NCBI GenBank assembly: GCA_031255175.1
Contig: JAIRTA010000067.1
Location: 1-39,172 of the forward strand
DNA: 39,172 bases
Source: Oscillospiraceae bacterium
GTDB taxonomy: Bacteria > Bacillota > Clostridia > Oscillospirales > UBA929
Direction: 5' to 3'
Notes under the pieces: generated by a model
The model's input: only the letters and a program-made list of their open reading frames with translations
The model's database searches: none
Told to the model about the DNA's origin: nothing
Made by a program: the position numbers and the translations under genes
Shown here: piece by piece, positions 9,447 through 39,172 of the stretch
How the letters are laid out: each line of letters opens with the position of its first letter
How positions within the stretch are numbered: the stretch's first letter is position 1

Positions 9447-10646
9447 ATGGATGAGTCGAATGCGGCACGCCGCCCGGACGCGCGGACGTACGGCGAACCG
9501 GAGACACTCGAAAAACCCCACAAGGGGCCTATGGACCTCCCTTTTCTCATGTTGGTCGTCATGCTCTCCGTCATTGGGCTCGTGATGATGTTCTCCGCCA
9601 GCTACGCCTCGGCGCTGAACGACAAAGACACAGGCTACAACGCCGCCTATTATTTTATACGCCAGGGCCTGTTTGCTGTGATGGGCATGGGCCTCATGCT
9701 GCTCATCTCCCGGATCAATTATCAGATCTTTCGTCCGCTCGCCGTGCCGCTCATGGCCTCCTCGATCGCGCTGCTGGTCCTGGTTCTCATCGTCGGCGTG
9801 GAGCGGAATTCCGCCAAACGGTGGATCCTCATCCCGGGATTTTCTCAGTTCCAACCCTCGGAGATCGCGAAACTGGCGGTCATCGTGTGTTTCGCGGCGA
9901 TGATCTCCGTCTATAAAGACCGCATGAAGACATTCCGGTACGGCATACTGCCCTTCATGGCCATTTTGGGCGTCATCGCCTTCCTCATGTTTTTGGAACC
10001 GCACCTATCCGGGACAGTGCTGATCCTGGGCGTCGGCGGCGCGCTGATGTTTGTCGGCGGCGTGCATTGGGGCTGGTTCGCCGCCCTCCTCGGCGGCGGC
10101 GGTCTCGGGGTCTATCTGATTTTGACGACGGACTTGCTGGGCAAGATCCTGCCCTATGCCATGCGGCGCATTGAGCTCTGGCGCAACCCCTTTTTGGACC
10201 CGCGCGGCAGCGGCTACCAGGCCATACAATCCCTGTACGCCATCGGCTCCGGGGGCGCGTTTGGGCTGGGCCTCGGCAAGAGTCGGCAGAAATATCTCTA
10301 CCTGCCGGAGGAACACAACGACTTTGTCTTTGCCATCGTCTGCGAGGAGTTGGGGCTCATCGGCGCCTGCATCGTGCTGCTGCTGTTCGCTGTGCTCATC
10401 TTGCGCGGGTACTGGATCGCCATCCACGCGCGGGACCGCTTCGGCTCCCTGATGGTGACCGGCATCGTCACCCTGCTCGCCATGCAGACCTTCTTCAACG
10501 TGGCGGTCGTCACAAATCTGATCCCCGTGACCGGCATGAGTATGCCGTTTTTCAGTTACGGAGGGACTTCCCTGCTCATTCAGCTCATGGAGATGGGCAT
10601 TGTGCTGGCTGTCTCCCGTCAAATCCCCGCCCCAAAATCAGGCTGA
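9447..10646 (+). CDS. ftsW: Lipid II polymerase FtsW (SEDS family)
   Basis: 399 residues, ten predicted membrane spans after a ~28-residue charged N-terminus. SEDS proteins are peptidoglycan glycosyltransferases working with a class B PBP. The signatures 'FQPSEIAKLAVI', 'EPHLSGTVLI', 'GYQAIQSLYAIGSGG', 'EEHNDFVFAIVCEELG' and the C-terminal 'IPVTGMSMPFFSYGGTS' are all present. ATG at 9447 follows AAAAAGGTGGG. Its likely partner is the PBP at 4.6 kb. FtsW, SpoVE and RodA are close relatives; the position in the division cluster favours FtsW/SpoVE. Confidence 0.95.
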   Translation: MDESNAARRPDARTYGEPETLEKPHKGPMDLPFLMLVVMLSVIGLVMMFSASYASALNDKDTGYNAAYYFIRQGLFAVMGMGLMLLISRINYQIFRPLAVPLMASSIALLVLVLIVGVERNSAKRWILIPGFSQFQPSEIAKLAVIVCFAAMISVYKDRMKTFRYGILPFMAILGVIAFLMFLEPHLSGTVLILGVGGALMFVGGVHWGWFAALLGGGGLGVYLILTTDLLGKILPYAMRRIELWRNPFLDPRGSGYQAIQSLYAIGSGGAFGLGLGKSRQKYLYLPEEHNDFVFAIVCEELGLIGACIVLLLFAVLILRGYWIAIHARDRFGSLMVTGIVTLLAMQTFFNVAVVTNLIPVTGMSMPFFSYGGTSLLIQLMEMGIVLAVSRQIPAPKSG

Positions 10647-10660
10647 CGCCGCCGGAGCCC

Positions 10661-10792
10661 GTGTGAAAACGCGAGAGTTTTCACCGGACTATACAATACA
10701 TAGTCCGGTTTTGCGGGATACACTATATATTGTATGTTCATAATTGCATGCCCAAATATTGCATGTTCAATGTGAAAACGTGGTTTTTACAC
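10661..10792. mobile_element. MITE-like palindromic element, copy 1 (ftsW-murG gap)
   Basis: 132 bp bounded by GTGTGAAAAC (10661-10670) and GTTTTTACAC (10783-10792), a 10-bp terminal inverted repeat with one mismatch, flanked on both sides by AGCCC (10656-10660 and 10793-10797), a candidate 5-bp target duplication. Each end also folds locally: GTGAAAAC-GCGAGA-GTTTTCAC on the left, TGTGAAAAC-GTG-GTTTTTACACA on the right. The AT-rich middle holds CCGGACTA/TAGTCCGG around TACAATACA, then ACTATATATTGTA. It carries no ORF and ends about 30 nt before murG. Confidence 0.65.
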
Positions 10793-10823
10793 AGCCCGGC
10801 CGGGGGATGACGGAGGGATCGCG

Positions 10824-11975
10824 ATGAGAATCTTGTTCGCCTGCGGCGGAACGGCGGGGCACATCAACCCGGCGCTGGCGGTGGCGGGCCTGTTGCGGGC
10901 GCGGCACTCGCACGCCGAGGTCCTGTTTGTGGGCGCCGACGGCGGCATGGAATGCGACCTCGTACCGCGCGCCGGCTACCGCATCCAAACGGTATCCATC
11001 CGCAGCCTGCGGCACCGGCTCACGCCGGCGGCCCTGTGGTACAACCTCAAAGTGCTGGGCGGCCTGGCGGGCAGTCTCAGAGCCGCCGGGCACATTTTGG
11101 ATGAATTCAAACCCGACGCCGTCCTCGGGACCGGCGGTTACGCCAGCTTCCCCGTTGTGTACACGGCGAGCCGGCGCGGCATTCCGTCGGCGGTTCACGA
11201 ATCCAACGCGCTGCCGGGGCTCACGACAAAGCTGCTGGCCCGCCGGGCGGACCGGGTGCTGGTCAGCTTTCCGGAGGCCGTATCCGCGTATCGCCGCCCG
11301 GACCGGGTGACGGTGACGGGCACACCGGTGCGGCAGGCGTTCTTGGAGGCGGACAGGGGCGCGGCGCGGCGCGCGCTCGGGCTTGACGAGAGGCCCGTCG
11401 TGCTCTCTTACTTCGGCTCGCTGGGAGCCCGCGACATGAACCGGCACATGGTGGATTTCATCCGGCGCGAGAGTGAGACGGGGGCCTTTCAGCACTTCCA
11501 CGTCACCGGCCGGTTCGGCTGGGCCTGGATGCCGGACGCGGTCCGTCAGGCCGGCGTCGACTTGGCGTCGCACCCCGAGATCCGGCTGTCCGAATACCTT
11601 CACGACATGCCCACCGCTATGGCGGCGGCCGATCTGCTCATCACGCGCGCCGGCGCCTCGACGCTGGCCGAACTGATGGCCACGGGCAAGCCCGCCATAT
11701 TGGTCCCTTCGCCCAACGTCACGGGCCACCACCAGGAAGAAAACGCCCGCGTACTGGCGCGCGCCGGCGCCGCCGTGCTGCTGCCGGAGTCGGAATGCGG
11801 GGACGGGGCGCTGTTCTCCGCCGCGAGCGGCCTGCTTCGGGAAAACGCCAAACGGGAGGCGATATCGGCCCGTTTGCGCGGCCTGGCGGTCTTGGACGCA
11901 ACCGAGAAGATTTATCAGATTGTGACATCCCTGGCGGCCAAACGCGGCGTACACAGCCAAAACGGGAAGATCTGA
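10824..11975 (+). CDS. murG: Lipid I N-acetylglucosaminyltransferase MurG
   Basis: 383 residues, GT-B fold, family GT28. It adds GlcNAc from UDP-GlcNAc to lipid I to give lipid II, at the cytoplasmic face of the membrane. N-terminal glycine loop 'GGTAGHINPALA', 'GTGGYASFP', 'HESNALPG', and the C-terminal donor-binding stretch starting 'ITRAGASTLAEL' and continuing to 'NVTGHHQEENARVL' are typical. SD GGAGGGA lies 7 nt before the ATG. It is separated from ftsW by the repeat element at 10.7 kb, and from murA by another non-coding element. Confidence 0.97.
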   Translation: MRILFACGGTAGHINPALAVAGLLRARHSHAEVLFVGADGGMECDLVPRAGYRIQTVSIRSLRHRLTPAALWYNLKVLGGLAGSLRAAGHILDEFKPDAVLGTGGYASFPVVYTASRRGIPSAVHESNALPGLTTKLLARRADRVLVSFPEAVSAYRRPDRVTVTGTPVRQAFLEADRGAARRALGLDERPVVLSYFGSLGARDMNRHMVDFIRRESETGAFQHFHVTGRFGWAWMPDAVRQAGVDLASHPEIRLSEYLHDMPTAMAAADLLITRAGASTLAELMATGKPAILVPSPNVTGHHQEENARVLARAGAAVLLPESECGDGALFSAASGLLRENAKREAISARLRGLAVLDATEKIYQIVTSLAAKRGVHSQNGKI

Positions 11976-21035: not shown

Positions 21036-21094
21036 TGCCGACAACTCCTTATATTTTGTGATCTGCCAAACTGTCTGTTCTCGCGGGAAAAACC

Positions 21095-21177
21095 GTGTGA
21101 GAGATGAAAAACTCCCGGTGCGCCATACAATATATAGCATGTGCATACTATATATTGTGGTTTTGAGTGTGAAAACC
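21095..21177. mobile_element. MITE-like palindromic element, copy 2 (inside the hydrogenase operon)
   Basis: The core is a near-perfect inverted repeat: the 15-nt arm 21127-21141 and the arm 21144-21158 pair at 14 of 15 positions around two bases and contain ACAATATATAG and CTATATATTGT. GTGTGA (21095) and the hairpin GGTTTT-GAGTGTG-AAAACC (21159-21177) mark degraded ends. It lies between hndB and the HATPase gene. Confidence 0.55.
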
Positions 21178-21232
21178 GCGATGTTTGTATATGCGGTATT
21201 TGCATAGTCTGGAAGAAGATCAACGCGGCGGC

Positions 21233-24254: not shown

Positions 24255-24593
24255 GTGAGCGCGTTTACCAAGTTTTATTTTCGCCCCGGCGAGGGCGAAC
24301 GGGTGGAGACCGCGGTGCATCTGGAGCCGGACCGGCGCTCGTCGATCCACGGCGTGGTGCGGGAGGCGCGCGGCGGCCGGCCGATCGCCGACGCCCTGGT
24401 CATGCTGCTGGCGGCCGGCGGCGCCGGCGATCCCGCGCCGGTCGGGCAGATGTTTACGGACGACGCGGGCCAGTTTGTGTTCGGCCCGCTGACGGCCGGC
24501 CGGCTGTACCTGGTCAAGGTCTACAAAAACGCCGTCAAACTGCGGGAGCTGGAGATCGTCGCGGAGGAACCGGAACCGGCGGGGACCGTGTAA
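24255..24593 (+). CDS. Small beta-sandwich (carboxypeptidase-regulatory-like) protein
   Basis: 112 residues from GTG at 24255; GAGGGAG lies 9 nt upstream, whereas the GTG at 24249 would be too close. The middle reads as a transthyretin-like/carboxypeptidase regulatory fold: 'SIHGVVREARGGRPIADALV' then '..FTDDAGQFVFGPLTAGRLY' and 'LVKVYKN', the common pattern of G.V.....P..A.V..T...G.F.F..L..G.Y. No signal peptide is seen. The exact function is unknown; similar small proteins occur in spore or envelope contexts in clostridia, but that is not shown here. Its TAA stop lies within the GTGTAAAAAC end of repeat copy 3. Confidence 0.7.
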   Translation: MSAFTKFYFRPGEGERVETAVHLEPDRRSSIHGVVREARGGRPIADALVMLLAAGGAGDPAPVGQMFTDDAGQFVFGPLTAGRLYLVKVYKNAVKLRELEIVAEEPEPAGTV

Positions 24594-24694
24594 AAACGTG
24601 GGCATTTTTGCAATACCATACAATATGTAGAAATTATCTTGCAATCTATATGCTTTGTGCTGTGTATCCAACTGTAAAAATTGTGTTTTTCACA
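24588..24694. mobile_element. MITE-like palindromic element, copy 3
   Basis: About 107 bp from GTGTAAAAAC (24588) to GTTTTTCACA (24685-24694), ends roughly complementary. The right end also folds as TGTAAAAA/TTTTTCACA. The centre (CATACAATATGTAG … CTATATGC) is a decayed form of the family core. No flanking duplication is evident. It begins inside the stop codon region of the upstream gene. Confidence 0.5.
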
Positions 24695-24843
24695 TGGCCC
24701 GGGCGGAGAGCGAGGCGTGAAAAATGTGATTTTTTTGAATTTTCGTTGCCAAGCCCCCGCGAACGTGATATGATAACTTAGATCGTGAATTTTGAGTAAA
24801 AGCGCAAAGGCGGGTGTCCGCCCGCGCGCGAGGGGGTGTCTGT

Positions 24844-28473: not shown

Positions 28474-28568
28474 CCTCGGCAACTGGCTACCATTTGCTCC
28501 GGCACAAGACCGAAAGCATCAGGCCCTATAGTTTTGCGTCACTGCCTTTCGACAGCTTTGCCTTTTCG
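28474..28568 (-). promoter_or_regulatory. c-di-GMP-I (GEMM) riboswitch aptamer
   Basis: Read leftward from 28568: GGCAAA, a short stem CTGTC-GAAA-GGCAG capped by the GAAA tetraloop, then GACGCAAA, CTATAGGGCC, a variable P3 stem region, and GGTAGCCAGTTGCC, the tetraloop-receptor strand. GGCAA pairs with TTGCC to close P1. These are the hallmark blocks of the GEMM-I family that binds cyclic di-GMP. Direction of control (on or off) cannot be read with certainty. Confidence 0.9.
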
Positions 28569-28612
28569 ATGAGACTCGATTCACGATTCACTGGATTCAG
28601 TGTACGCTCTTA

Positions 28613-31418: not shown

Positions 31419-31485
31419 CTCGATCGCAAAGGCGATGGGAAGACCGCCGCGCGAAGCGCGGCGCCGGACCGACAAAAAAGAGACC

Positions 31486-31590
31486 GTGTGAAAACCCGAA
31501 CGTTTTCACCGCGTCGAACAATATATAGTATTATTTTTTCATATAATACTATATATTGTGTACGTAAGGCAAAACTGTGGGCTTTACACA
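31486..31590. mobile_element. MITE-like palindromic element, copy 4 (before nfeD)
   Basis: About 105 bp, from GTGTGAAAAC (31486) to GCTTTACACA (31581-31590). Left hairpin GTGAAAAC-CCGAAC-GTTTTCAC (31488-31509). The centre is a perfect 17-bp inverted repeat, 31518-31534 with 31543-31559, containing ACAATATATAGTAT and ATACTATATATTGT. It ends 23 nt before the nfeD start. Confidence 0.65.
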
Positions 31591-31613
31591 ACCGGGAAGA
31601 GGGGGTGGGGACC

Positions 31614-35036: not shown

Positions 35037-35064
35037 CGGCCGCGCGCACGCACACTACATATAG

Positions 35065-35115
35065 CATACTATATATGGCATACTACATATGGCATAAAAC
35101 ACAATATATAGTATG
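35065..35115. mobile_element. Fragment of the MITE-like family, copy 5 (before topB)
   Basis: CATACTATATAT (35065-35076) and ATATATAGTATG (35104-35115) are a perfect 12-bp inverted repeat, with ACAATATATAGTATG as in the other copies. Between them are CATACTACATATGGCATA-like near-repeats. The GTGTGAAAAC ends are missing. Confidence 0.4.
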
Positions 35116-37444: not shown

Positions 37445-39172
37445 TTATTGCTGTTTTAGGGCGATCCCGCCTGTGAAATAAAAATAATAGGTATGAAGCA
37501 GGGGCCCCGTGCCGGAGATCTCCAGGTGTCCGCCGATGAGAACCCTCGTACCGGCTGTGAGTTGCAGGCCGATCTGCCGGACGGAGGCCGCCTGTGCGGT
37601 ATTGCTGGGTATCGGGCCGCCGCTGTACCCCGGTTGCACAGTGAGTTTCGTCGACGGCACGGGGGTGAAGACATTGCTGTCGGGCGCCGCGGTGTACAGT
37701 TCCAAAAACGGACGCACAGTTATGCCGGAGGGAAAGGTAAAGGTGGCACGGCTATTGACAGTCATGTAGATGTTTTCGAGCGTTGCGTCAAAAGGCAGCG
37801 AAAAGACGTCTTGCCGATTGCCCGAGAGCGTCACGGTTCCGTTTGCATCGAGCGAGGCCACGGGGGACGTTCCGGCAAACGTTAAGAGACTGACATTTGT
37901 CGCGTTGCCCGAGCTGTCCGTTATGAGGGCCGGTGCGGTGTGGGAAGCGAACGGAATGGCCGTGAGGGGGGAAGGCCCGGCGGGCCCTGGGGATCCCTGT
38001 GCGCCCTGCGGCCCTGTGGGACCCGGATTGCCTTGCGGCCCCTGTGGCCCCGCAGGCCCGGGGTTGCCTTGGAGCCCCTGTGGACCCTGCGGACCTGCGG
38101 CACCCAGATCGCCTTGCGGCCCTTGCGATCCCTGCGGTCCGGTGGGGCCGGGGTTGCCTTGCGGTCCCTGCGGACCCGTGGGCCCGGGATCACCCTGTGT
38201 TCCCTGCGGGCCCTGCGGGCCTGTAGGACCCGGATTGCCCTGCGGTCCCGGCGATCCCTGCGGCCCCGCGGAACCCGGATTGCCTTGCGGTCCCGACGAG
38301 CCCTGCGGCCCTGCGGGTCCGGGATCGCCTCGCGGCCCTTGCGGTCCCGTGGCACCCGGATCGCCCTGTGTTCCCTGCGGTCCCGCGGGTCCGGGGTTGC
38401 CTTGCGGTCCCTGCGGTCCCGTGGAACCCGGATCGCCCTGCGGCCCCTGTGTTCCCTGCGGTCCCGCGGGTCCGGGGTTGCCTTGCGGTCCCTGCGGTCC
38501 CGTGGAACCCGGATCGCCCTGTGTTCCCTGCGGCCCAGTGGGTCCCGGTTCGCCCTGTGGTCCCTGAGGCCCAGTGGGGCCCGGATTGCCTTGTGGTCCC
38601 TGCGGTCCCGTGGAGCCTGGATCGCCTTGCGGCCCCTGTGTTCCTTGCGGACCTGCGGGCCCGGGGTTGCCTTGTGGCCCTTGCGGTCCCGTGGAACCCG
38701 GATCGCCCTGTGTTCCCTGCGGTCCAGTGGGTCCGGGGTTGCCTTGCGGACCCTGCGGTCCCGTGGAACCCGGATCGCCTTGCGGCCCGTGTGGTCCCTG
38801 CGGCCCAGGGGGTCCCGGATCGCCCTGTGGTCCCTGCGGCCCAGTGGGGCCCGGCTTGCCTTGGGGTCCCTGCGGTCCCGTGGAGCCCGGATCGCCTTGT
38901 GCGCCCTGCGGTCCCGTGGAGCCTGGATCGCCTTGCGGCCCCTGTGTTCCCTGCGGTCCCGTGGAGCCCGGATTGCCTTGTGCGCCCTGCGGACCCGCGG
39001 GACCCGGGTTGCCTTGCGGTCCCTGCGGCCCTGTGGAGCCCGGATCGCCTTGCGGCCCCTGTGTTCCCTGCGGCCCCGCGGGTCCGGGGTTGCCTTGCGG
39101 TCCCTGCGGTCCCGTGGAACCCGGATCGCCCTGCGGCCCCTGTGTTCCCTGCGGTCCCGCGGGTCCGGGGTT
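37445..39172 (-). CDS. Collagen-like (BclA-type) exosporium/spore-surface protein, C-terminal part
   Basis: The leftward frame is open from the window end to TAA at 37445, so the N-terminus is missing (partial). About 1.2 kb (37975-39172) encodes an unbroken run of Gly-X-Y triplets with X/Y chosen from Pro, Gln, Asn, Asp, Ser, Thr, Ala, e.g. [13 protein letters not shown]. Sampled phases stay in 9-nt register. A nine-triplet (81-nt) unit recurs. A non-collagen C-terminal domain of about 175 residues follows ('[20 protein letters not shown]' to '[14 protein letters not shown]'), resembling the jelly-roll trimerisation head of BclA-like spore proteins. It would form a triple-helical filament on the spore surface. 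Codon use across the repeat is dominated by proline CCG/CCC and glycine GGN. Confidence 0.88.

Follow-up and report, generated by a model that had tools for sequence, protein, structure and literature searches.

What is the short, palindrome-rich segment between ftsW (9447–10646, + strand; TIGR02614, above cut-off) and murG (10824–11975, + strand; TIGR01133, E = 1e-72, just below the curated cut-off), and what might it do there? In the window, by which we mean the whole 39,172-nucleotide stretch analysed, it is a 143-bp mobile element copy (10656–10798, + strand) which scores 94 bits with R1, a covariance model of the family described below; the site is empty in two sister genomes (L038, L039) and in a more distant relative (L040). 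The left end (10656–10684, +) consists of AGCCC and a hairpin (GTGTGAAAAC-GCGAGA-GTTTTCAC), and the right end (10770–10798, +) of a hairpin (ATGTGAAAAC-GTG-GTTTTTACAC) and AGCCCG. Between them lie two core boxes resembling NrdR boxes, ACAATACATAGT (10693–10704, +; 11/12) and, 29 bp from it, ACTATATATTGT (10722–10733, +; 12/12); no promoter- or terminator-like signal was seen in this copy. An earlier note on this DNA had described a 132-bp segment bounded by GTGTGAAAAC/GTTTTTACAC, with a hairpin at each end and a palindromic, AT-rich centre; these are all present at 10661–10792, but the full element extends beyond them on both sides. The end pattern is matched 8 times in the window, compared with 2.3 in shuffled sequences (0 of 100 shuffles as high).

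The boundaries follow from comparison with other copies and with empty sites. The AGCCC previously taken for a target duplication corresponds to AGACC and AGYCTG at the same positions in other copies, and is hence made up of the element's own terminal bases; the window copy reads AGCCC and AGCCCG there, and its two ends resemble each other by chance. A left end AGACCGTGTGAAAAC and a right end TGTGATTTTCACACAGCCTG are common to the aligned copies. The flanking direct repeat is instead GCCGG (10651–10655 on the left, 10799–10803 on the right), which L038 and L039 have only once where the element is missing, and which is indicated by the flank match analysis also. These sister genomes, whose MurG is ~90% identical to that of the window, read GACGCCGCCGGGGA(C/T)GACGG at ftsW–murG, and their empty site, GACGCCGCCGGGGATGACGG, backs GCCGG as the repeat. 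The window junctions (GACGCC-GCCGG-[element]-GCCGG-GGGATGACGG) contain one G above the empty-site prediction.

The segment belongs to a large family. Used as a BLAST query against the host genome (a 2.5-Mb draft in 159 contigs), the 132-bp copy found 12 places; R1, built from 18 copies, gave 123 hits at E ≤ 1 and 79 at E ≤ 1e-3, reverse-strand echoes included, and 60–65 distinct places once such echoes were dropped, the weakest of which share the element only in part. The whole-genome search that the earlier note proposed thus brings up about 60 related copies, spread genome-wide with shared ends, where a solitary segment or non-coinciding ends would speak against a family. Copies are mostly about 95–150 bp long, with no ORF of their own seen. 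The note counted five in the window. Those at 21.1 kb (21090–21211, +; boxes at 21127 and 21147, 20 bp apart; right end AGTCTG), 24.6 kb (24583–24701, +; GGCGG on both flanks; one good box, at 24620) and 31.5 kb (31481–31595, +; boxes at 31518 and 31548, 30 bp apart) are true members, with R1 scores of 71, 111 and 105 bits, the window copy and two of these three having been in the training set. The fifth, at 35.07 kb (35054–35112, +), is not a copy: it holds four AC(A/T)A(T/C)ATAT(A/T)GT-like boxes, unphased (spacing 14, 14 and 19 bp) and without element ends (R1 E = 0.55). Elsewhere in the window are a c-di-GMP-I riboswitch (28475–28572, − strand; Rfam RF01051) and, at 37949–39172, an extended run of 36/45-bp repeat units with a 9-bp step, which by eye looks like a Gly-X-Y coding repeat of the collagen type.

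The terminal inverted repeats are imperfect (AGACCGTGTGAAAA versus CAGRCTGTGTGAAAA at the opposite end), and the flanks carry a copy-specific signal. Over 60 copies, left and right flanking 5-mers gave 163 matches against 131 expected (sd 6.6) from between-copy shuffles; exact repeats numbered 6 against 1.1 expected (p = 6e-4), and repeats with at least 4 of 5 positions matching 19 against 7.8 (p = 5e-5). A target duplication, as the earlier note proposed, is upheld as a copy-specific flanking repeat of 4–5 bp, although at ftsW–murG its sequence is GCCGG, and an offset scan allows lengths of 3 to 5 bp. Pairing between the arms of the left hairpin is better when both come from one copy than when they come from different copies (0 of 5000 shuffles as good); no co-variation was found for the right-hairpin arms, nor any signal of co-evolution between the two terminal repeats within copies. 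Mini-copies of ~35–45 bp, in which both ends are joined in one hairpin, occur at L167 (C95:8378), L172 (C41:6880), L173 (C86:890) and L174 (C111:19405). The high copy number, lack of genes, short imperfect terminal inverted repeats and copy-specific flanking repeat, together with relatives whose sites are empty, agree with the earlier reading of a MITE, and the sequence evidence supports a MITE-like, non-autonomous mobile element.

The orthologous flanks of further copies are likewise empty, or differently filled, in the sister genomes G002–G004, and at the sites compared these alignments place insertion after the split from the sampled relatives; the nearest named relatives of the window MurG are Oscillospiraceae metagenome-assembled genomes, from whose isolate codes one might guess at a termite or cockroach gut as the source. 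At one differently filled site (L156 in G003, orthologous to copy L092), ~140 nt with a single ACAATATGTTGT box in a hairpin and no element ends are possibly a remnant. The family was searched for in 38 genomes (the host and 37 relatives) at E ≤ 1e-3, and one other genome matched, only through a pair of boxes inside a terminator-like hairpin; a larger search with stricter filters, over 394 genomes from the order, gave one further weak match, to boxes only. In 352 kb of the sister G003 no end was found at 0–1 mismatch, with ~7 expected from the host density (48 in 2.5 Mb). Despite its very divergent copies, the family was thus not found among the sampled relatives. Phage, plasmid and viral-contig collections contained no match to the element, and an origin from such sources was rejected; Rfam gave no match either, and a known RNA family was likewise rejected. 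Another interspersed palindromic repeat, AACGTGGGTTGC...GCAACCCACAACCCAAATTCTTGTTTTTTGTTGCCGC..GCGGCAACAAG, is intergenic in the sister genomes G003, G004 and G002 (L160, L162, L151, L164), and is fused to the element's ends at two places in the host (inside L129 and near an end match in L166).

The copies differ widely from one another. Spacer columns are about 30–45% identical between copies, with ends and boxes conserved, whereas fourfold sites of ftsW and murG are 80–86% identical between the host and its sister L038; since parting from L038 the host has therefore diverged less than the copies have from one another. Pairwise identity was discarded as a measure of age, since shuffled sequences align at 68%. 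As judged from these sequence comparisons, a single recent burst does not explain the divergence; possible explanations are an old, diverse family with turnover of sites that was lost from the sisters, acquisition from a donor, and mutagenic copying.

Placement among genes is strongly biased, a feature which, with the location of copies at operon junctions, the earlier note overlooked. By gene calls from a codon-usage score trained on the window genes, which make the counts approximate, 45 of the 59 copies with callable neighbours lie between genes on the element's strand and 7 between genes on the other; convergent genes flank 3 copies and divergent genes 4. Tandem sites are thus occupied in one orientation in 45 of 52 cases, and the downstream gene is co-stranded with the element in 49 of 59. 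The right end is commonly separated from the predicted start codon by a few tens of bases at most, the insertion targets are G-rich and Shine-Dalgarno-like, and in about 9 copies the upstream reading frame stops at the TGA of GTGTGA in the left end. Downstream genes above the curated cut-off include mnmA, recR, xseA, hemW, ftsY, recN, ychF, rsmD and cmk; murG-, addA- and lon-like genes fall below it, the latter two as partial sequences. No functional theme was seen across these genes.

The AT-rich core (ACAATATATAGTAT type) proved to be a pair of 12-bp palindromes. NrdR is a switch that senses the supply of DNA building blocks and represses the ribonucleotide reductase genes; its 16-bp box has the consensus acaCwAtATaTwGtgt. 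The earlier note knew of no family to match the element, and no resource searched recognised the family; its core resembles an NrdR operator box pair. With a box defined as 11–12 of 12 positions of a degenerate palindromic consensus, picked after the copies had been viewed, at least two boxes occur in 46 of the scanned places and no recognisable box in 13. Their spacings (n = 51) fall at 19–21 bp (27), 29–32 bp (19) and 42–43 bp (2), with one each at 14, 23 and 25 bp; they come from related copies, such that Rayleigh values overstate the evidence for phasing. NrdR is reported to bind two 16-bp palindromic boxes best with spacers of 14–17 or 24–27 bp, the boxes lying an integral number of helix turns apart on one helix face with centres three or four turns apart; spacers of 12–27 bp were tested, and two-turn spacing was not among them (PMC12051234). 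By this three/four-turn rule the classes at 30 and 42 bp agree with NrdR sites already known, and the 20-bp class, about half of the pairs, would be an NrdR site only by extrapolation.

The host itself encodes NrdR (TIGR00244) and the class III ribonucleotide reductase NrdD, as identified with NCBIfam. Its nrdD promoter (TTGACA-17-TACTAT) carries a weak box over the −10 element (ACTATATATGTA; 9/12) and, 31 bp on, a better one (GCAATATATAGT; 11/12). The strict box-pair pattern occurs 0–4 times per genome in relatives, and of the loci read none evidently belonged to an nrd gene; in view of this sparseness the nrdD upstream regions were examined directly, and at a loose threshold similar pairs ~31–33 bp apart were found in most of the relatives sampled, a few being without. 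Within the family, the conserved columns are the boxes and the ends, and the spacers are near random; such conservation against a divergent background suggests selection on both, and family structure could contribute to it. Boxes paired at 20 bp are not confined to the element: the loops of some terminator-like hairpins hold them too (L133, C60:16827; L130, C60:6096; and L100 in the sister G003, C70).

Taken together, the segment between ftsW and murG is probably one of ~60 places occupied by a MITE-like element that carries NrdR operators; that NrdR binds them, and that gene regulation is affected, are predictions from sequence. According to this proposal, a transposase acting in trans would join the ends (AGACCGTGTGAAAA.../...TTTTCACACAGYCTG) to a G-rich, Shine-Dalgarno-like target of 4–5 bp, which is duplicated in the process; because of the duplication, the downstream gene would retain a ribosome-binding site and a copy would be tolerated inside an operon, with the Shine-Dalgarno sequence left by the G-rich target favouring retention. 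Most copies have two palindromic boxes that face the same side of the DNA helix and closely resemble those of the host nrdD promoter. NrdR loaded with dATP may bind these pairs, and may either stop RNA polymerase on its way into the downstream gene or be titrated away from nrdD; dozens of genes would in this way become tied to dNTP supply. Several findings speak against this reading: no transposase with matching ends was found, about half of the pairs have the two-turn spacing, 13 places are box-less, the first nrdD box is weak, the downstream genes lack a theme, the window copy shows no promoter or terminator signature, and the copies diverge widely. That functional operators have been dispersed to some 40 sites, mostly intra-operon, forming a dNTP-responsive regulon peculiar to this lineage or else a sink for NrdR, is a possibility that we put forward tentatively.

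The alternative which survives best, though we consider it rather unlikely, is an ordinary selfish MITE whose core palindromes are subterminal binding sites for the transposase or a host factor, with a coincidental likeness to NrdR boxes; orientation and position would reflect the choice of Shine-Dalgarno targets together with purifying selection against harmful insertions. The boxes do lie inside a mobile element and are copied along with it, the downstream genes lack a theme, and the G-rich flanking 5-mers fit target choice. Coincidence does not, however, readily account for the similar pair 31 bp apart at the host nrdD promoter, for the nrdD pairs of most relatives sampled, where no element was found, or for box pairs outside the element in terminator-like hairpins; moreover, several copies have ends but no box, as if boxes were dispensable for movement, unless they were lost later.

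A REP/BIME-type repeat, moved by a REP-associated tyrosine or IS200-like transposase, is improbable. Each element end is a hairpin, the mini-copies are single hairpins, and the host genome encodes both transposase types (REP-associated tyrosine, L182, C50:563–799; and IS200/IS605). Such transposases are generally known to act on hairpins without producing a target duplication, which makes the copy-specific flanking 5-mers unexpected. Neither the 2.3-kb stretch around the REP-associated transposase gene nor the stretch analysed around the IS200-type gene contains element-type ends, and with these missing both enzymes were rejected as the mover; nor do the element's ends, AGACC/AGYCTG, have the GT(A/G)G head of REPs (PMC2817692). 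A transposase gene bounded by the same terminal repeats, for which the earlier note suggested a search, was not found: none was recognised near the 0–1-mismatch end matches in the 159-contig draft, where neighbouring ORFs are partly annotated. An IS256 origin, hinted at by the end sequence, was rejected as well, there being no Mutator-type transposase (PF00872) in the genome. Finally, a non-mobile, riboswitch-like structured RNA leader inherited with each gene might explain the fixed orientation ahead of start codons, the stable folds (z −1.9 to −6.4) and the co-varying left-hairpin arms, but is scarcely credible given the empty orthologous sites, the lack of matches in the relatives and in Rfam, the unrelated downstream genes, right-hairpin arms that show no co-variation, and boxes whose spacing rises by about 10 bp at a time, as fits duplex DNA.

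If the operator reading of the MITE-like element holds, this would be a MITE carrying the site of a host regulator, here NrdR, and an example from nature of transposition rewiring gene regulation; with whole-turn spacing kept while the rest diverged, the copies would also offer spacing variants of two, three and four turns for the study of NrdR binding rules. In the literature searched, dispersal of NrdR operators by a mobile repeat has not been described; in Pseudomonas, array experiments revealed other deregulated genes whose promoters lack NrdR boxes (PMC4409342).

The element combines features of several known systems. With NrdR operators of ribonucleotide reductase operons (PMC12051234) the core shares paired palindromic boxes, spaced mostly at about whole helix turns, but in the element the boxes belong to a repeat found beside dozens of unrelated genes, and two-turn spacing accounts for half of the pairs. 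REP/BIME repeats are similar in hairpin ends, high copy number and the presence of a REP-class transposase in the host genome; they differ in that the element lacks the GT(A/G)G head, has flanking duplications, and was not seen to flank the transposase gene. BOX, RUP and SPRITE of Streptococcus pneumoniae are also intergenic, mostly <200 bp and capable of secondary structure, BOX and RUP with terminal repeats and target duplications, but they are over-represented between convergent genes (PMC3049150), whereas the element lies mostly between co-directional genes, near start codons. The Correia elements of Neisseria are likewise short, gene-less, multi-copy MITEs with terminal inverted repeats, which carry a DNA-binding site for a host protein (IHF) and can affect the adjacent operon (PMC10969869); the element described here differs in that it lies mostly inside operons, in one orientation, and in that the site it carries looks like an operator for one particular dNTP-sensing repressor, NrdR.
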